Of a stretch of 64,000 bases of DNA, positions 15,110 through 23,356 are shown in pieces. Numbering within the stretch: position 1 is the first letter of the stretch; each line of letters starts with the position of its first letter. The position numbers were made by a program, and so were the translations under genes. The notes under the pieces are model-generated. The model ran no database searches and was not told where the DNA came from. It saw only the letters and a program-made list of their open reading frames with translations. Source of the DNA: Arachnia propionica (lineage in GTDB: Bacteria; Actinomycetota; Actinomycetes; Propionibacteriales; Propionibacteriaceae). The stretch covers positions 3,038,001 to 3,102,000 of the forward strand of contig NZ_CP146373.1 in assembly GCF_037055325.1 (NCBI RefSeq), in the 5' to 3' direction.

Positions 15110-15145
15110 CGTCAAACGCCAGCGCTGTAGCGCTGGCGTTTGACG
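15110..15145. terminator. Perfect 16-bp hairpin terminator
   Basis: CGTCAAACGCCAGCGC at 15110-15125 is exactly complementary to 15130-15145 around a TGTA loop. It lies between the convergent ABC ATPase and aldo/keto reductase genes, so it can serve both strands. Confidence 0.9.
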
Positions 15146-15183: not shown

Positions 15184-16215
15184 TCACTCGCGGCTGCTGG
15201 AGATCCACTGCGGCGGGGTGAACGACAGGTTCCGGGATCCCTGCACCAGATCGGCAACGGCATCGAGTCGCGCCACCTGGTCATCGGTCAGCCGCAGCTG
15301 CACCGCCGCCGCATTCTGCCGGACCCGCTCCGCCGACCGGGTGCCGGGGATGGGAACCACCGGCAGGCCGAGCCGCCCGGTCCGGTCCAGCAGCCAGGCC
15401 AGCGCGACCTGCGCCAGGGTCGCGTCCAGCTCATCGGCAACCCCACGGATCACCTGGAGCAGTTGCTGGTTGGCGTCGTAGTTCCTGACGAACCGGTCCT
15501 CGGCTTTGAGCATCGATCCCGCGATCCGCTCCGGTGTCAACGCACCGGTGAGGAACCCGCGACCCAGCGGGCTGTAGGGCACGAACCCGGCCCCCACCTC
15601 ACGAGCCGCGGGCACCACCTGGGCCTCGACATCACGCGACCACAGGCTCCATTCGCTCTGGACCGCGGTGATCGGGTGGACGGTGGCGGCGGCCCGCAGT
15701 TCGGCCGCGGTCACCTCGGACAACCCCAGGTGACGAACCTTGCCCTCCGCCACGAGATCGGCCATGGCCCCCACCGTCTCCTCGATCGGCAGGTCGAACT
15801 GGCGGCGGTGCATGTAGTACAGGTCGATGGTCTCGACGCCCAGCCTCCGCAGCGATGCCTCACAGGCGGAACGGACGTAGGCGCGGTCACCGCGCGTCGC
15901 CGGAGCGTCGGGGGTTCCGATGAGACCGGTGATGCCGAACTTGGTGGCAACCTGCACCTCCCCCCGACGCTCCCGCAGCAGCTGCGCGAACAACTCCTCG
16001 TTCGTACCTGCCGGCCCCTGGGCGCCGGGCCGGGGCTCACCGTAGACATCCGCGGTGTCGAGGAACGTGACCCCCGCGTCGACGGCGGCGTGCAGGGTCG
16101 CGAGGGCATCGGCGGGATCGGTCTGCCCGTAGACGTGGCTCAACGCCATCCCGCCGAAACCGATCCGGCTGACGTTCAGGCCGTGGCCCAGATCAATGAT
16201 GGGTACCTGGTGCAT
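15184..16215 (-). CDS. Aldo/keto reductase
   Basis: A 343-residue protein. ATG 16215 is chosen because GGGAG precedes it and the protein starts HQVPIIDLGHGLNVSRIGFGGMAL. AKR landmarks are present: FLDTADVYG (Asp and Tyr of the tetrad), VATKFG (Lys), LYYMHR (His), and the C-terminal VVPIPGTRSAERVRQN that binds NADP phosphate. It reduces carbonyls with NADPH. It follows the MerR-fusion gene with one base between, so it is probably that regulator's target. Confidence 0.9.
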   Translation of the reverse strand: MHQVPIIDLGHGLNVSRIGFGGMALSHVYGQTDPADALATLHAAVDAGVTFLDTADVYGEPRPGAQGPAGTNEELFAQLLRERRGEVQVATKFGITGLIGTPDAPATRGDRAYVRSACEASLRRLGVETIDLYYMHRRQFDLPIEETVGAMADLVAEGKVRHLGLSEVTAAELRAAATVHPITAVQSEWSLWSRDVEAQVVPAAREVGAGFVPYSPLGRGFLTGALTPERIAGSMLKAEDRFVRNYDANQQLLQVIRGVADELDATLAQVALAWLLDRTGRLGLPVVPIPGTRSAERVRQNAAAVQLRLTDDQVARLDAVADLVQGSRNLSFTPPQWISSSRE

Positions 16216-16216
16216 G

Positions 16217-17095
16217 TCATTCTCCCAGTGCTCGTTCATAGTTGGTGATCTTGTGGTCGAGGGCGCCGAGGTCGTCGGCAAGCTGATTCAGCTGCTGCTG
16301 GACGGCATCGCGATGCCGTCTGAGCAGAGCCAGGCGACGCCGGTGCGACGACTCCCCCTCGGCAACCAGCGTGATGTACTCGCGCATCTGCTCCACCGGC
16401 ATCCCGGTGCGTCGCAGCCTCACCAGCATCTGAATCATCCGGATCGCCCGCCCGTCGTAGCGGCGGTAGCCGTTGGAGGTCCGGTCGATCACCGGGATCA
16501 GTCCCTCGCGTTCATACCAGCGAAGGGTGTCGCGGCTGAGGCCGGTGATGTCGGCCACCTCGGCTATCCCGACGGCAATGCTCCCGGCCTGCCGCCATGC
16601 CGAGGCGGCCAGGTCATCCGCGGACCGGACGACGACCCCCGCGGCGCGGAGTTCGTCGAGGGCCGCGAGGTGCGCCTCGGCTGTGGTGTCGGCGCAGGCG
16701 TTGGACACCACGGTCACTGCATATCCGCGCTCCAGGGCCGACAGGGCGGCGAGCCGGATGCCGTGGCCGGTCACTAAACCGGTCAACACGACGTGCTCGA
16801 CCCCGAGGCCCCGCAGGGTCTCGTCGGTTTGTGCAACGTCGAAGATGTCGCGGTCGTGTTTGGTGATGACGGGCTGCCCGCGCGGTTCGAAACCGTCCAC
16901 GAAAGCGGCGTCCGGATGATCGGGATCGGCCCGGTCGTCCCCCGGTTCCGGGGACAGGTACCGGGTGCTGATCACCGGCCAACCGAGGTTAGCCAGCAAA
17001 CGCCGGACCTCCCGTCCCAGATGCGCCGACCACGGGTCGTGGGCAAGGGCGAGAACCCAGTTCTGCCAGTCGATTTCGAGCAGTGCACTTCGCAT
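16217..17095 (-). CDS. Isochorismatase-like domain fused to MerR regulator
   Basis: A 292-residue protein from ATG 17095. Residues about 1-165 form an isochorismatase-like hydrolase domain (SALLEIDWQNWVLAL, TKHDRDIFDVAQTDETLRGLG, VVLTGLVTGHGIRLAALSA). The catalytic Cys normally found four residues into TxxC is a Gly here (TGHG), so hydrolase activity is doubtful. Residues about 185-292 form a MerR DNA-binding domain (IAEVADITGLSRDTLRWYER, NGYRRYDGRAIRMI) with a coiled-coil tail. The likely reading is a one-component regulator with a dead enzyme as sensor, controlling itself and the aldo/keto reductase. Confidence 0.85.
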   Translation of the reverse strand: MRSALLEIDWQNWVLALAHDPWSAHLGREVRRLLANLGWPVISTRYLSPEPGDDRADPDHPDAAFVDGFEPRGQPVITKHDRDIFDVAQTDETLRGLGVEHVVLTGLVTGHGIRLAALSALERGYAVTVVSNACADTTAEAHLAALDELRAAGVVVRSADDLAASAWRQAGSIAVGIAEVADITGLSRDTLRWYEREGLIPVIDRTSNGYRRYDGRAIRMIQMLVRLRRTGMPVEQMREYITLVAEGESSHRRRLALLRRHRDAVQQQLNQLADDLGALDHKITNYERALGE

Positions 17096-17103
17096 GACCC
17101 CAC

Positions 17104-17136
17104 ACGCTAAACACTGGAGCCCACTCCAGGGCAAAT
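17104..17136 (-). promoter_or_regulatory. MerR-type promoter/operator
   Basis: The palindrome CTGGAG-N4-CTCCAG occupies 17114-17129, just upstream of the fusion gene. On the minus strand it sits inside a 19-bp spacer between a TTTGCC box and a TTAGCG box. An over-long spacer with a central dyad is the hallmark of MerR-activated promoters. This implies autoregulation of the two-gene operon. The boxes themselves are weak matches. Confidence 0.65.
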
Positions 17137-17528: not shown

Positions 17529-18014
17529 ATGAAGATCCGGAAACTGGTAGCTACATTTTTTATCATTCTCACGAAAGCTGCTCTCACCGTGCCAAGCGCT
17601 TCGGCTGAAACCACTTCGCCAGGCCAACCACCATCCACCAGTCTTCCTGCCACATCTCCCGACGTGGACGGGATCATCGCAAAGGCCAAGTCCAGTGATG
17701 TCGGTTTCTCGGCACGTCGCAATCTCATCGCATCCAGCGCCGCTTTCATGCAGGTACTCAGGAAAACGACTCCTGATCACCAGAGAAGCCTGGATTACTT
17801 CACAGCCATCTCCAGCGATCAGCAGGCTACCGATCTCGTGGCGAACACCGCCGGTAAACACTATGTGGTCTCGGGCACACCATGCAGAACCCCGACGTCA
17901 AACTGGTCGACGGGAAAGCCACCGATGACTCCACCAACCCGCCCGGGGCTAAGAACCTCCCTCAGGATATGCCGCGATGCGGCAAGGCGTGGGCCGCTTT
18001 TTCTGCTTGGCTGA
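17529..18014 (+). CDS. Secreted peptide precursor, N-terminal part (frameshifted)
   Basis: The ATG at 17529 follows AAGGAAGGGGAAG. The N-terminus MKIRKLVATFFIILTKAALT ending in SASAE is a Sec signal peptide with a clear AxA cleavage site. The mature part is Thr/Pro/Ser-rich, then helical. After about residue 117 the frame loses coherent character, while the +1 neighbour frame (17858 onward, ATG 17882) encodes a hydrophobic Cys-rich tail. The two frames were probably one gene. In that case it would be a bacteriocin-like secreted precursor, but family membership is inference. Confidence 0.55.
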   Translation: MKIRKLVATFFIILTKAALTVPSASAETTSPGQPPSTSLPATSPDVDGIIAKAKSSDVGFSARRNLIASSAAFMQVLRKTTPDHQRSLDYFTAISSDQQATDLVANTAGKHYVVSGTPCRTPTSNWSTGKPPMTPPTRPGLRTSLRICRDAARRGPLFLLG

Positions 18015-18124
18015 CCGGAACAACGATGCTGTGCGCACCATTCTCCGGTCCAGCCGCGTGGGGATGCGCAGCAGCGATGGGAATCCTTGGCCTGATGCCA
18101 GATTTCAACAGTGCCTGCGACTAG
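17882..18124 (+). CDS. Cys-rich hydrophobic tail, candidate bacteriocin core
   Basis: 80 codons from ATG 17882, in the frame after the break in the preceding gene and with only a poor ribosome-binding site of its own. The C-terminal 50 residues carry four Cys (PRCGKAW, TMLCAPF, WGCAAAMG, NSACD) spaced through a hydrophobic stretch. That fits a disulfide-stabilised membrane-active peptide of the halocin C8-like kind, though this is only a resemblance. A small two-span membrane protein follows, as expected for an immunity protein. Confidence 0.5.
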   Translation: MQNPDVKLVDGKATDDSTNPPGAKNLPQDMPRCGKAWAAFSAWLTGTTMLCAPFSGPAAWGCAAAMGILGLMPDFNSACD

Positions 18125-18480: not shown

Positions 18481-18512
18481 CCCGTAGCGTTCGGCAACAC
18501 GAACGCTACGGG
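18481..18512. terminator. Perfect 13-bp hairpin
   Basis: CCCGTAGCGTTCG at 18481-18493 pairs exactly with 18500-18512 around a 6-nt loop. It ends the peptide/membrane-protein run and also lies at the end of the minus-strand pseudogene remains. Confidence 0.85.
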
Positions 18513-18527
18513 CGCGCTGACCTCGAT

Positions 18528-18690
18528 ACGTGCAACAGCAGCGCGTTCACCCGTCCGTGCGCGACCGGGTAACGACCACCCAGCGCATGCGCCAGCGAAA
18601 CGACGACACCCAGACCGATGTTGCCAAAGCCACCGCCGCCGTGCAGGAGGCATTGCGCATGTGCACACGGGCCTCCAGGCCATCGATCCC
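18528..18690 (-). pseudogene. Iron-containing alcohol dehydrogenase fragment
   Basis: This stretch aligns at the DNA level, roughly four bases in five, with 19808-19965 inside the pduQ-like gene. It encodes AHALGGRYPVAHGR, the conserved iron-ligand region, and LEARVHMRN in another frame, so it is frameshifted as well as truncated. It is the remnant of a second Fe-ADH copy, joined to the AbiEii-like remnant upstream on the minus strand. Confidence 0.75.
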
Positions 18691-19012
18691 ACGCAACGAC
18701 ACCCAGATCGACGGCAACCACCGGCTCCGCGGAGCCTCTGCTGAGGACGAGTCGTGAAAAACAGGGATGCTGTTCCCGGATCTCCACGTCATAGCCTTCT
18801 TCTTGAAAGGCAGCGACGACTCGCTCCAGCGCCGAGGCGAATTCGTGCTGCGCGGACTGTGTGGTGAACAGGTCCACGTCCTCGGTAGGGCGATCGATGA
18901 ATCCGTGTTCACGAATGGCACCAGACCCAGCCAGCGCGAACCCTGCTTCCGGGCCTGCCGCCTCCAGGGCAATCCTCGCGATCCTTCTCTGTTCGGAGGC
19001 ATCCCGGCTCAT
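18690..19012 (-). pseudogene. AbiEii/AbiGii-type nucleotidyltransferase toxin, truncated
   Basis: From ATG 19012 the frame encodes about 105 residues with the nucleotidyltransferase core (ALAGSGAIREHG, then PTEDVDLF), the GS...DxD motif of AbiEii-like toxins. Near 18690 it runs directly into the alcohol-dehydrogenase fragment, so the C-terminal half is gone. The start overlaps the preceding ORF's stop (ATGA), as in toxin-antitoxin operons. It should be inactive. Confidence 0.7.
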
Positions 19013-19343
19013 GTGCGTACCCGGAGTTCGGGGAAACGCGTTTCCCACAGGTCCCGCACCCTCTGGTCCAGGTTGATCACGGGCCACAGCTCGATGAGAC
19101 GATCCCGGTTGAGTAGACGTTCCTGTTCGGCCACCCGCCCTTCGGTGAGCAACGCCTGGTAGGCCATACGCCGCCCCCCACATCATCCACGTCGATCCCC
19201 ACGCGATCCTCCTGCCAGCGAACCCCGTGCGGAAGGTCGATCAACCCGTGATAGGGGCCGCGCAGGGCGTCAAGAGTCGTCGGCGCATGGCAGGGCTTCA
19301 CGTCCCGGAACCGAACACGTCCCGCAACCACACCGGTCACCAT
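19009..19343 (-). pseudogene. Partner gene of the AbiEii-like remnant, frameshifted in a G6 run
   Basis: ATG 19343 has GGGAGG upstream and encodes about 56 sensible residues (VAGRVRFRDVKPCH, GLIDLPHGVRW). At a run of six G on the minus strand (C at 19174-19179) the frame breaks. The following 52 codons (AYQALLTEGRVAEQERLL, WETRFPELRVRT) continue in another frame to a stop at 19009. That tail is typical of small proteins encoded upstream of AbiEii-type genes. It is either a pseudogene or a homopolymer sequencing error. Confidence 0.6.
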
Positions 19344-19501: not shown

Positions 19502-20605
19502 TCACGCGATCCTGCGCAGGATGCCCTTCAGGTCGTCGGGCGAAGGCGCCACCGGGGTGGTCGTGGTGCAGCCATCGGCGAGGGCCGCGGCCACCAGGCC
19601 GTCCTCGTCGCGACGCAACACATCGGATGCGACCTTCAGGTCGCTCAACCGCGACGGGATGCCCAGCCTCGACCTCAACCGTTCGACCGCACCGACCAGC
19701 GACGTCACCGCCGCCCGCCCCCTCGCCGAGGGGTACAGCAGCCTGCCCAGGCGGGCGTAGCGTTCGGCGGCGCGGTCGCTGCGGGATGCGTTGAATTCGA
19801 TGACGTGCGGCAGCAGCAGCGCGTTCAACCGTCCGTGCGCGATCGGATAGCGGCCGCCCAGCGCGTGCGCCAGCGAGTGGACGATACCCAGGCCAACGTT
19901 GTCGAAAGCCATCGCCGCCATGCAGGACGCGTTGTGCATGTGGGAACGCGCCTCCAGGTCGTCGCCGTGGGTGTAGCAGCGCTCCAGGTTCCCGAACACC
20001 AATTCGACGGCCTTCTCCGCCAGCGCATCGGAGAAGTCGCAGGCCTCCAACGCCACATACGCCTCCGTGGCGTGGGTGAGCACGTCCATGCCGGAATCGG
20101 CGGTGATGTGCGAAGGCACCCCGACCACGGCCTCCGGATCCAGGATGGCCAACCCTGCCACCAGCTCGCTGGAGGCGATCGGGACCTTCGTGTGCGTCTG
20201 CTCGTCGGTGACCACGGCAAACGACGTCACCTCCGAGCCCGACCCGCTGGTGGTGGGGATCGCGACGATCCCCTCCGGCGCCCCGAAACCGGCGTCGAGC
20301 GCGGCCTTGTGCATTACCTTCGTGGCATCCATCACCGACCCACCGCCGTAGGCGACGACCACATCGGGCCTGGACTGCAGATACACCGACACCCCGGCGC
20401 CGATCTCGGATGTGGTGGGGTTCGGTTTCACACCCGTGAAGGTCGTCACCTGCTCACCGAGCCTGTCGACCACCTTCCGGTACACGTCGGTGGTTGCCAG
20501 GAAGTCGTCGGTCACGAGGAACACGGGCCTGCCACGAAACTCGTCGAGCGCCTCCAACGCCGCCGCACCCAGCCGCACCCTGGTGGCCAGCCGGAACTCT
20601 CTCAT
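19502..20605 (-). CDS. pduQ: Iron-containing alcohol dehydrogenase, PduQ-like 1-propanol dehydrogenase
   Basis: A 367-residue group III (iron) alcohol dehydrogenase. VVAYGGGSVMDATKVMHK and the metal-binding GIVHSLAHALGGRYPIAHGRLNALLLPHVIEFN are clear. The start ATG 20605 has GGAGCAGGAG upstream and overlaps the stop of the 57-codon ORF. In pdu systems PduQ reduces propionaldehyde to 1-propanol and regenerates NAD+ inside the shell. The role is inferred from linkage to the pdu locus. Confidence 0.85.
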   Translation of the reverse strand: MREFRLATRVRLGAAALEALDEFRGRPVFLVTDDFLATTDVYRKVVDRLGEQVTTFTGVKPNPTTSEIGAGVSVYLQSRPDVVVAYGGGSVMDATKVMHKAALDAGFGAPEGIVAIPTTSGSGSEVTSFAVVTDEQTHTKVPIASSELVAGLAILDPEAVVGVPSHITADSGMDVLTHATEAYVALEACDFSDALAEKAVELVFGNLERCYTHGDDLEARSHMHNASCMAAMAFDNVGLGIVHSLAHALGGRYPIAHGRLNALLLPHVIEFNASRSDRAAERYARLGRLLYPSARGRAAVTSLVGAVERLRSRLGIPSRLSDLKVASDVLRRDEDGLVAAALADGCTTTTPVAPSPDDLKGILRRIA

Positions 20606-20775
20606 CTCCTGCTCCTGTTCTTCTGCATACCCGAGGGTCCTCCCTGACCGGCGGGACAGGTTGCCCGCGGGGACATCGTCGTCACGAGTGGCGCATCCGA
20701 GGTCGCCGGGCCGGCCTCACGGGCGGCGCGGATCATCCAGCGTAGAAGGTGCGCCGAGGGGCGGGACGTGGTCAT
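20602..20775 (-). CDS. Coupled 57-residue protein between pocR-like and pduQ genes
   Basis: This small ORF overlaps both neighbours by ATGA: its ATG (20775) overlaps the pocR stop, and its TGA overlaps the pduQ start. An exact fit on both sides is unlikely by chance. The N-terminal third, SAHLLRWMIRAAREAG, would form an amphipathic helix of the size used as microcompartment encapsulation tags. The rest is Pro/Gly/Ser-rich with a basic end. No family is recognised. It may be expressed as a small protein or may only couple translation. Confidence 0.5.
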   Translation of the reverse strand: MTTSRPSAHLLRWMIRAAREAGPATSDAPLVTTMSPRATCPAGQGGPSGMQKNRSRR

Positions 20776-22118
20776 GCCGCCCTCCCGGAATGTTCCCTGC
20801 GGTACTCGGACGGGGTCATCCCGATGTGTTTCTTGAACTGCCGCGAGAAGTAGTTCAGCGGCGTGAAATCCAGCTCCGCGGCGATCCTGAGCACCGGTTT
20901 GTCGGTGTGGATGAGCACGAACTTCGCGCGCTCCAGGCGTTTGGCGGTCACGTAGTGGATGAAGCTGGAGCCAGTGCGTTCCTTGAACTTCCTCGCGAAA
21001 TGCGACTCCGACCACATCAGGTAGGAAGCTGCCTTGTGCAGCGTCAGGAACGACGACGGATTCTTCTCGATCTCGTTCAGCAGCGTCGTGATGCTGCGTT
21101 CCCCACCCCGGGCTGCGGGCTCGAGGAGGTCGTGGACGCGGATCAGCAGTTTCTCGCAGTACACCTGGCATTCGTATCGGTTCATCGGGCCGCGTCGGCG
21201 TCCCCGGTGGCGGGTGACGATCTGGGAGATGTCGCGCCCGAACTGCACAGCCTCACTCGTGGCGATGCCGATCATCATGTCCTCGTATTCGGACAGCTCC
21301 CTCGGATCCACCTTCTGGCTCCAGCGCGGCAGCAGATGGTCCAGGTAGTCGCCAAGCAGCTCCAGGTTCGCGGCTGCGTTGCCCTGTGCGACGTTGCGGG
21401 CCATCACCGGGGCCTCCAGCGAGATCCGTCGCTTCACCGACTCGACGGGGATCAGCGGCAGGGGTTTCCGGATTCCCGCCAGCAGCGGGGCGAGTGCCGC
21501 GTCGTCACTGGGACCCGGAATCCGCCGGAGCCTGCCCAGCACCGTCCCCGCAACCGCGAAATCCGCCTCGCCGAGAGTGGAACCGAGTTTCGCGTTCGCC
21601 AGGCCGACGACCTCGTTGGCCGCGGCCTGCAGCTTGCCGAGGTCGACCACGGCCACCTGATCCAGCAGCTTCGCGGTCTCCGAGTGTTCCAGCACCTCCG
21701 AGGCACCCACAATCTGCTGGAGCTGCTGCTGCCCCTCGGTAAGCAGCACCTGCCCGGCCATCACCGCGCCCAGATACTGCGCACCCCACATGATCGAGAC
21801 GGAAAAATCCACCAGGCCCGCATGACACCGGTACACGACCGGACGTCCCTCGATGGCGCTCTGCAGCCCGCCGTGGGCGTCGCAGCTGTAGCACTTGGCG
21901 CGGATCGCGGGATCGCGACGCAGGTACTGGCACAGGGTGCTGAACCGCGACGCCTCCGTGACGGGACGACCCATGGAATCGACGGTGATCATCGCCAACC
22001 CGGTGGAGGTGGCGAAATCGTCCTGGATGCGCTGCAACTCCTCGACGTCAATGAGATTGCGCAGATCGAGGGCGGCAGCCGCGTTGCCCGCGACCGGGTT
22101 CACGATGAAGTCCGGCAC
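20772..22118 (-). CDS. pocR: PocR-type AraC regulator of propanediol utilisation
   Basis: A 448-residue protein. Residues about 20-175 are a PocR sensory domain, with its Cys cluster in AKCYSCDAHGG and YRCHAGLVDFSV. Residues about 340-445 are the AraC helix-turn-helix pair (TLHKAASYLMWSESHFARKFKERTG, and FTPLNYFSRQFKKHIGMTPSEYRR). In enteric bacteria PocR activates pdu and cobalamin genes in response to 1,2-propanediol. It is encoded in the leftward operon and probably acts on the divergent promoter region before pduA. Confidence 0.9.
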   Translation of the reverse strand: MPDFIVNPVAGNAAAALDLRNLIDVEELQRIQDDFATSTGLAMITVDSMGRPVTEASRFSTLCQYLRRDPAIRAKCYSCDAHGGLQSAIEGRPVVYRCHAGLVDFSVSIMWGAQYLGAVMAGQVLLTEGQQQLQQIVGASEVLEHSETAKLLDQVAVVDLGKLQAAANEVVGLANAKLGSTLGEADFAVAGTVLGRLRRIPGPSDDAALAPLLAGIRKPLPLIPVESVKRRISLEAPVMARNVAQGNAAANLELLGDYLDHLLPRWSQKVDPRELSEYEDMMIGIATSEAVQFGRDISQIVTRHRGRRRGPMNRYECQVYCEKLLIRVHDLLEPAARGGERSITTLLNEIEKNPSSFLTLHKAASYLMWSESHFARKFKERTGSSFIHYVTAKRLERAKFVLIHTDKPVLRIAAELDFTPLNYFSRQFKKHIGMTPSEYRREHSGRAA

Positions 22119-22537
22119 AGCACCTCCTGCACGCGTTTGAATCCCTTGCCTGTGATCGAGTCGACCGCCACGATCTGGTGGGCACCGGCCCGCGCCAGAT
22201 GGTCGACGGCGTTGTGCACCTGGGTCTCGGTGGCCACCCCGGCATGGGTGACGACCCCCAGCACCTCGCGGTTGAAGGTGGTGGCAAATCCCGGCGGGAA
22301 ACGGGTTTCGTCGCTGGTGGCGGACTGCACCAGCACCACCACGTCCACGTCGTAGGAGGCCAGCATCAGGGCGTGTTTGTAGCGCCCCACCTCCAGGTAC
22401 TCGCCCGGGGTGTCGATGGCGGAGGCGAAGGTCTCGATGGCCTGGGTCTTGGCGTACTCGATGGGCAGCCCTTGGAGACGCTGCCTGAATGTCGTCTTGC
22501 CGGCTCCAATGCTGCCGACAAGCAGGATCGACCTCAT
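22100..22537 (-). CDS. pduV: EutP/PduV-type microcompartment GTPase
   Basis: A 145-residue protein with Walker A GSIGAGKTT at residues 8-16 and the EutP/PduV layout (TPGEYLE, YDVDVVVLVQSATSD). Members of this family bind to microcompartments and may link them to cell-wide positioning. It overlaps the next gene (pocR-like) by 19 bp and follows the PduU-like shell gene. Confidence 0.88.
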   Translation of the reverse strand: MRSILLVGSIGAGKTTFRQRLQGLPIEYAKTQAIETFASAIDTPGEYLEVGRYKHALMLASYDVDVVVLVQSATSDETRFPPGFATTFNREVLGVVTHAGVATETQVHNAVDHLARAGAHQIVAVDSITGKGFKRVQEVLCRTSS

Positions 22538-22545
22538 GCCCTACG

Positions 22546-22899
22546 TCACGTCCTCGTCAACGGCGCCGGGGTGAAGCCGAGAATGGACTGGAGGGTGGTG
22601 ACGATCCCCGTGACGGCGGACTCGACGTCGGCGAGCTGGCCGGTGATGAGCAGCGACCCGGAGAAGCGGTCGACGAAGGCCAACTCGACTCCCGCCGACT
22701 TGGTGGCGATGTCGGCGGCGATCACGGCGGCCTCACCCGGTGTGATGGTCAGCACCCCGATGGCCCCGCTGCTTCCCGCGGGAAGACCGATCTTCGGGTA
22801 CAGGTGCGGATCGGGATTGGCTATCACGTGGGCGAGCGTGACCTGCTTGCCAGGCACGAACTCCTGGATGATGCGCGTTTTGTCGGTCAACTCGGTCAT
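22546..22899 (-). CDS. pduU: PduU/EutS-type shell protein
   Basis: A 117-residue circularly permuted BMC-domain protein starting at ATG 22899 with GAGGAG upstream. The N-terminal RIIQEFVPGKQVTLAHVIANP forms the extra beta-barrel strand of PduU, and SGAIGVLTITPGEAAVIAADIA is the BMC core. It forms hexameric facets, and the barrel side is thought to recruit PduV, which is the next gene here. Confidence 0.92.
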   Translation of the reverse strand: MTELTDKTRIIQEFVPGKQVTLAHVIANPDPHLYPKIGLPAGSSGAIGVLTITPGEAAVIAADIATKSAGVELAFVDRFSGSLLITGQLADVESAVTGIVTTLQSILGFTPAPLTRT

Positions 22900-22935
22900 C
22901 AATCGCTCCTCTGGGTTGCCCTCACGATAGGGGCA

Positions 22936-22995
22936 CTTCCGGTCGGGTTCAACGTTGCACGCATTCTCGAAGCAAGAATGTGTAACAACCGGAAG
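22936..22995. promoter_or_regulatory. Dyad-rich regulatory region between the two pdu operons
   Basis: The 178-bp divergent region contains CTTCCGGT at 22936-22943 inverted as ACCGGAAG at 22988-22995. Between them lie GCATTCT (22961-22967) and AGAATG (22975-22980), extended by GTTGCAC and GTGTAAC. The symmetric arrangement between the pduU and pduA starts is a good candidate for the binding site of the PocR-like regulator or a global regulator. Confidence 0.55.
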
Positions 22996-23077
22996 AAACT
23001 GTGTATCGGAACCTGCTCTATGGTGTCGGGACAGGCCCAATTGGCCTGCCGCTAGGACTAACGACGAAGGAGTCAGC

Positions 23078-23356
23078 ATGCAGGAAGCGCTCGGAATGGT
23101 CGAGACGAAAGGCTATGTCGGAGCGGTTGAGGCCGCCGACGCCATGGTCAAGTCCGCGAATGTGTCCCTCGTGGGCAGCGAGAAGATCGGTGCCGGCCTC
23201 GTGACCGTGCTGGTGCGCGGCGACGTCGGCGCGGTCAAGGCCGCCACCGACGCGGGCGCCTCGGCGGCGGAACGGGTGGGTGAACTCATCAGCGTGCACG
23301 TGATCCCGCGTCCCCACAACGACGTCGAGAAGATCCTCCCCACCCAGGCCAAGTAG
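23078..23356 (+). CDS. pduA: PduA-type hexameric shell protein
   Basis: A 92-residue BMC-domain protein from ATG 23078 with GAAGGAG upstream. The start [20 protein letters not shown] and the end [15 protein letters not shown] are canonical. PduA hexamers tile the shell facets, and their central pore passes 1,2-propanediol. It is the first gene of the long rightward pdu operon and is closely similar to the PduJ-like protein at 29883. Confidence 0.96.

Follow-up and report, generated by a model that had tools for sequence, protein, structure and literature searches.

What does an isochorismatase-fold domain contribute when it is placed in front of a MerR-type transcription regulator? The question is raised by a gene of Arachnia propionica located in the 64,000-nt stretch of DNA analysed here (hereafter the window), which belongs to a 3.31-Mb genome assembled as one contig. 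An earlier note, made from the sequence alone, had proposed that this gene encodes a regulator that evolved by using a dead hydrolase as a ligand sensor and that controls an aldo/keto reductase (AKR). We compared the locus with related genomes and loci (handles starting with G and L, respectively) and asked which parts of that proposal hold.

Both domains are encoded in a single open reading frame and match Pfam profiles above the curated cut-offs; the fusion is real. PF00857 covers residues 3-160 with 105 bits (cut-off, 27), and the C-terminal half is matched by MerR (PF00376, residues 177-213, 58 bits), MerR_1 (PF13411, residues 177-241, 54 bits) and MerR-DNA-bind (PF09278, residues 221-274, 33 bits). 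In an AlphaFold model of the fusion, built from a 6-row alignment, the MerR half is good and residues 247-289 form a predicted long C-terminal helix with pLDDT of approximately 90, which together with the Pfam matches to the HTH and DNA-binding helices bears out the earlier description of the MerR domain as complete; pLDDT of the isochorismatase half is mostly below 60, too poor for a fold search. The gene is present within the span 16217-17136 previously assigned to it, but its 5′ end lies at 17095 and the DNA beyond is promoter; a longer, TTG-started frame reaching up to 17134 would start within the promoter and is unlikely to mark the true start. The fusion is also open over its full length in 2 further genomes, G004 (99% identical) and G002, [Pseudopropionibacterium] massiliense (98% identical), where it sits in the same gene neighbourhood as in the window. 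The 3 carriers are close relatives, Arachnia bacteria of the oral type.

Features of the fusion operon (positions in the window; a dot marks features given without strand)
Feature	Position	Strand	Details
Isochorismatase-MerR fusion CDS	16217..17095	-	292 aa; ATG 17093-17095, stop 16217-16219
Isochorismatase-fold domain	16616..17089	-	residues 3-160; Pfam PF00857 and alignments
D9 codon	17069-17071	-	
K79 codon	16859-16861	-	
G112 codon	16760-16762	-	nucleophile position
Complete MerR domain	16226..16570	-	residues 176-290; HTH, DNA-binding helices, long C-terminal dimerisation helix; PF00376/PF13411/PF09278
Promoter	17104..17134	-	-35 TTGCCC 17129-17134, 19-bp spacer, -10 TAGCGT 17104-17109
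Operator palindrome	17114..17129	.	CTGGAG-TGGG-CTCCAG, in spacer
Aldo/keto reductase CDS	15184..16215	-	343 aa; AKR13/perakine-reductase-like; PF00248, 248 bits
Hairpin past AKR gene	15110..15145	.	perfect 16-bp stem; -43.4 kcal/mol for 61-nt stretch, z -7.2

The palindrome in front of the gene has the placement expected of a MerR operator, within a 19- to 20-bp spacer between -35 and -10, and it is conserved in relatives: (C/T)TGGAG-N4-CTCCA(A/G) right behind a TTG-type -35, in a 19-bp spacer, recurs before many related stand-alone merR genes. With up to 3 mismatches tolerated, a scan of the window for the promoter-operator pattern gave this single match (0.01 expected), and the MerR-type promoter with CTGGAG-N4-CTCCAG described in the earlier note is thereby upheld. 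Upstream of the -35, the window and G004 have unrelated DNA, whereas their promoters differ at only 3 bases, 2 at the centre of the spacer and 1 at the last base of the palindrome; conservation against such diverged upstream DNA reads as a clear footprint. The ATG of the fusion follows the -10 after 8 nt, and the corresponding gap is 7 nt in L007 and L009; therefore, these transcripts, including that of the fusion, probably have no leader or almost none. The recurrence of a start codon approximately 7 to 8 nt past the -10 (17095-17104 in the window) suggests that such a transcript may be conserved in the merR-AKR family. In 6 loci with stand-alone merR-AKR (L010, L011, L012, L017, L021, and L022), a second near-identical operator is found in a promoter immediately upstream of the AKR gene; the Arachnia operon has no such second copy. 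Elsewhere in the genome, a second copy of the operator, a perfect palindrome at C1:3224654, falls within the gene of a trypsin-like protease, lacks a promoter arrangement and was treated as a chance occurrence.

The AKR gene starts 1 nt after the stop codon of the fusion, with a Shine-Dalgarno-like GGGAG within the end of the fusion gene. The best solved relative of its product is perakine reductase (3uyi/3v0s), and by inspection of the sequence the customary Asp-Tyr-Lys-His residues are kept. The hairpin past the AKR gene, which lacks a T run, is the probable, bidirectional end of the two-gene unit; a search for consensus terminators followed by a T run gave none there. The previously proposed control of an AKR thus finds its counterpart in a two-gene unit, with the start of the AKR gene corrected to 16215.

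On the other side of the promoter, a short frame at 17531-18124 (+) has a signal-peptide-like start (MKIRKLVATFFIILTKAALTVPSASA) and is interrupted with respect to another frame that lies downstream of it, possibly representing a broken secreted-peptide gene. The ORF at 18506-19186 (-) combines part of an AbiEii-like nucleotidyltransferase (PF08843, 23 bits) with a short C-terminal piece of an Fe-alcohol dehydrogenase, which resembles the intact Fe-alcohol dehydrogenase at 19502-20605, and looks like a chimeric pseudogene formed by partial duplication. The region 19502-23356, encoding this dehydrogenase, a PocR/AraC-type regulator, a PduV/EutP protein and microcompartment (BMC) shell proteins (the one at 22955-23356 recognized by inspection), is part of a propanediol/ethanolamine-type microcompartment operon.

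The closest relatives of the MerR half are stand-alone proteins of 2 genomes of the same genus, G009 and G034 (approximately 63% to 65% identical), in which an AKR (80% identical) is encoded directly downstream and the isochorismatase domain is missing. When the DNA of these loci is compared with the window, the merR-AKR stretch alone aligns, and the alignment ends at the domain junction. More generally, an AKR gene lies downstream of the MerR gene in most related loci with the operator. The simplest history would be that the promoter and the MerR-AKR pair form an older unit, behind whose existing promoter the isochorismatase domain was later added in frame. Because related loci combine this operator with a stand-alone MerR and an AKR but have no such domain, the regulator that received it would apparently already have been functional. 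Among NCBIfam models, NmlR fits the MerR half best, with 97.4 bits, below the equivalog cut-off of 175, and this half of the fusion contains no Cys. At the position of the NmlR/AdhR Cys, placed by comparison with AdhR, the fusion and most actinobacterial relatives have Arg, and L010 and L021 have Cys.

In the isochorismatase half, which is approximately 7 residues shorter than its relatives in the first helix, alignments show that the Asp and Lys of the family are kept (D9 and K79), as is Q11, two residues after the Asp, and that Gly112 occupies the position of the nucleophilic Cys of the Cys hydrolases (PncA, RutB, YcaC). The substitution reported in the earlier note is therefore correct; the conclusion that it denotes a dead hydrolase is not upheld. 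Among the stand-alone homologues found, those nearest to it, L039, L041, and L042 (31% to 32% identical), have Gly at the same position (TAHGVSATA). A maximum likelihood tree places them with the fusion with support of 96/87, albeit on long branches and together with YcaC, which has the longest branch of the tree. Gly likewise replaces Cys in YecD-like proteins, YecD itself (Asp25-Lys112-Gly145) and EntB (Asp37-Lys123-Gly156) (PMC12553813). EntB-type enzymes are active without the nucleophile, and in PhzD/VibB the main chain of the Gly binds the pyruvyl carboxylate of the substrate (PMC12210187). Gly at this position is no proof of a dead enzyme. Since it is common to the nearest stand-alone relatives, YecD and EntB, the domain most likely carried Gly when it was acquired; it would thus have been Cys-free before the fusion rather than having given up catalysis for sensing.

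The Asp-Lys-Gly set of EntB/PhzD is thus present in the fusion (D9-K79-G112), but the resemblance does not extend to the substrate pocket. The isochorismate-binding residues of Stenotrophomonas maltophilia EntB, Gln79, Trp95, and Tyr152 (PMC12210187), correspond in alignment A1 to Tyr46, a gap and Val108, respectively, so this half is not a predicted isochorismatase. Nor does it fit the YecD-like group, in that GIRLAAL stands in place of GVESTAR (GVSATAG in L039, L041, and L042). Ligands of the nicotinamide or NAD+ type appear less likely because the Cys used by nicotinamidases is absent from the fusion, as is the counterpart of Cys198, which ERM-BP of Entamoeba, a nicotinamidase-fold, NAD+-dependent transcription factor, needs for binding both NAD+ and DNA (PMC6207428). 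EntB/PhzD-like isochorismatases are encoded in 2 other genomes of the genus Arachnia, namely L088 (G011) and L094 (G005), which carry the YAHIG motif and group with Escherichia coli EntB in the tree.

Comparison of the 3 species shows that both halves of the fusion are under purifying selection and that the isochorismatase half is kept less strictly than the regulator. The dN/dS of the isochorismatase half is 0.13 to 0.18, and the MerR half shows zero amino acid changes, although each pair of species differs there by 3 to 8 synonymous changes; variable residues amount to 6 of 165 in the former and 0 of 122 in the latter (p = 0.04). Two of the 6 lie beside the pocket: H80Y, which adjoins K79, and Gly110 of the window copy, replaced by Ser in G002, two residues before G112 and preceding H111.

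What can be read directly from the sequences is the fusion itself, its operator and operon layout, the Gly in the relatives and the signature of purifying selection. The reading that we consider best, with a probability of about one half, is that of an autoregulated merR-AKR operon whose MerR gained an N-terminal accessory domain sensing a small molecule. The old unit would comprise a Cys-poor, NmlR/AdhR-like MerR that binds (C/T)TGGAG-N4-CTCCA(A/G) in the 19-bp spacer. MerR proteins act by distorting promoter geometry, and in this way the MerR half would switch its own gene and the downstream AKR gene. In a small Arachnia clade, a stand-alone Asp-Lys-Gly isochorismatase-like domain would subsequently have been joined in frame ahead of the HTH, with the old promoter retained. 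Its pocket would most likely bind a small carboxylate or carbonyl-type metabolite, and the ligand-bound domain may alter the action of the MerR dimer, such that AKR expression would follow the metabolite. More tentatively, the protein could be described as a recent one-component regulator, in which the Cys-free isochorismatase-fold domain serves as an N-terminal ligand-sensing module and gives a new metabolite control over a carbonyl-reductase operon of older date.

Several observations count against a sensor. The related MerR-AKR pairs without the domain indicate that it is dispensable for the basic switch; thus, the domain would tune rather than enable regulation. The variation on the side of the pocket (H80Y, Gly110/Ser) does not suggest one strictly fixed ligand. 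Furthermore, the sensor domains of MerR proteins are normally C-terminal to the HTH, and the extra domain of the fusion is N-terminal. Of the ligand-sensing regulator envisaged in the earlier note, sensing remains plausible, whereas the origin from a dead hydrolase is not supported, and same-operator MerR-AKR pairs manage without the domain.

The strongest competitor, though an unlikely one, holds that the domain binds no small molecule and is instead a protein-interaction or oligomerisation module, or a tolerated passenger that stabilises the regulator. CrcA (PA1677, PDB 8CIB), which has Ser for Cys, acts by binding Crc (PMC10213629), and the same structure (8cib) is among the solved relatives of the domain of the fusion (E = 2.6e-5); in addition, isochorismatase-fold proteins dimerise, as do MerR proteins, and the faster evolution of the domain compared with the MerR half would suit such a role. 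Yet, none of the 3 species has lost D9, Q11, K79, or the Gly loop, which is more conservation than a mere scaffold needs, and dN/dS is well below 1. The residues D9, Q11, K79, and G112, kept as in EntB and YecD, lend some weight to a different view, according to which the domain is a working Cys-independent enzyme, with an EntB/PhzD-like vinyl-ether hydrolase or a YecD-like activity, in a bifunctional protein co-produced with the AKR; purifying selection and the activity of EntB-type enzymes without a nucleophile are compatible with it. We regard this as less likely still, considering that the isochorismate-binding residues are replaced, that the YecD group is without known activity, wild-type YecD showing no gamma-lactamase or amidase activity (PMC12553813), that fusion to a low-copy regulator would leave the enzyme scarce, and that residues beside the pocket differ between sister species. 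Finally, the suspicion that the fusion reflects a sequence error or 2 separate overlapping genes, raised in the earlier note itself, can be dismissed, because a single open frame is present in 3 independent assemblies of 3 Arachnia species, no in-frame start codon occurs around the domain junction (codons 130-180), and the placement of the AKR gene and promoter agrees with that in the older merR-AKR unit.

Within the genomes covered, the fusion was found in this clade only. A full-protein query of the whole family (198 Propionibacteriaceae genomes) found no fourth fusion, and a query with the isochorismatase half recovered stand-alone relatives only, at 42% or less, in genomes sampled from the order (294), class (395) and phylum (396). 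Profile scans of the fetched loci revealed no frames with both domains beyond the 3 Arachnia fusions. Several MerR matches had alignments running into the isochorismatase half (G052, G071, G061, and plasmids) and were judged to be chance extensions; those that were fetched, all from outside the plasmids, have no isochorismatase domain in the same frame. No phage DNA match was found, and a scan of viral contigs with the MerR alignment gave distant MerR genes only. No paper on an isochorismatase-MerR fusion was found in the open-access literature searched. Taken singly, the two halves, the operator and the pairing of merR with an AKR gene belong to known kinds; an architecture in which an isochorismatase-fold domain precedes the HTH of a MerR protein was matched neither in the open-access papers searched nor in the other genomes sampled.

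If the domain is a sensor, the locus would be a clear case of a regulator gaining a new input through the capture of an enzyme-fold domain, and the unfused parent, with the same operator and the same AKR in sister species, makes the gain cleanly testable. Furthermore, a missing Cys is poor ground for calling isochorismatase-fold proteins dead, as Gly at that position is the mark of large natural groups that include active enzymes.

Among known systems, the closest are the stand-alone NmlR/AdhR-like MerR-AKR pairs of Actinomycetota (for example, G009, G034, G042; L007-L009), with MerR proteins 57% to 65% and directly downstream AKRs 72% to 80% identical to those of the window. They share with the fusion the operator in a 19-bp spacer and a start codon a few bases past the -10, but not the isochorismatase domain, and L007 and L008 have no other neighbour genes in common with the window. 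NmlR/AdhR proper, MerR regulators of formaldehyde and carbonyl stress, resemble the fusion in providing its best NCBIfam model and in regulating oxidoreductase genes, yet the fusion scores below the curated cut-off and has Arg instead of the Cys called absolutely conserved in this group (Cys54 in Haemophilus influenzae, Cys52 in Bacillus subtilis; PMC4776306). E. coli YecD and EntB/PhzD share the fold, by profile, and the natural Asp-Lys-Gly set, in which Gly substitutes for Cys, but are 24% to 25% identical and either stand alone or are fused to a carrier domain rather than to MerR; the isochorismate-binding residues of EntB/PhzD are not kept. CrcA of Pseudomonas aeruginosa is likewise a Cys-free isochorismatase fold with a regulatory role, but it is a stand-alone Crc-binding protein with Ser at the position in question and no DNA-binding domain. 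ERM-BP uses the same fold for transcription control, although it keeps Cys198, has no MerR domain and is of unrelated origin. As regulators made from the isochorismatase fold, ERM-BP and CrcA are precedents that support a sensor-type reading of the fusion.
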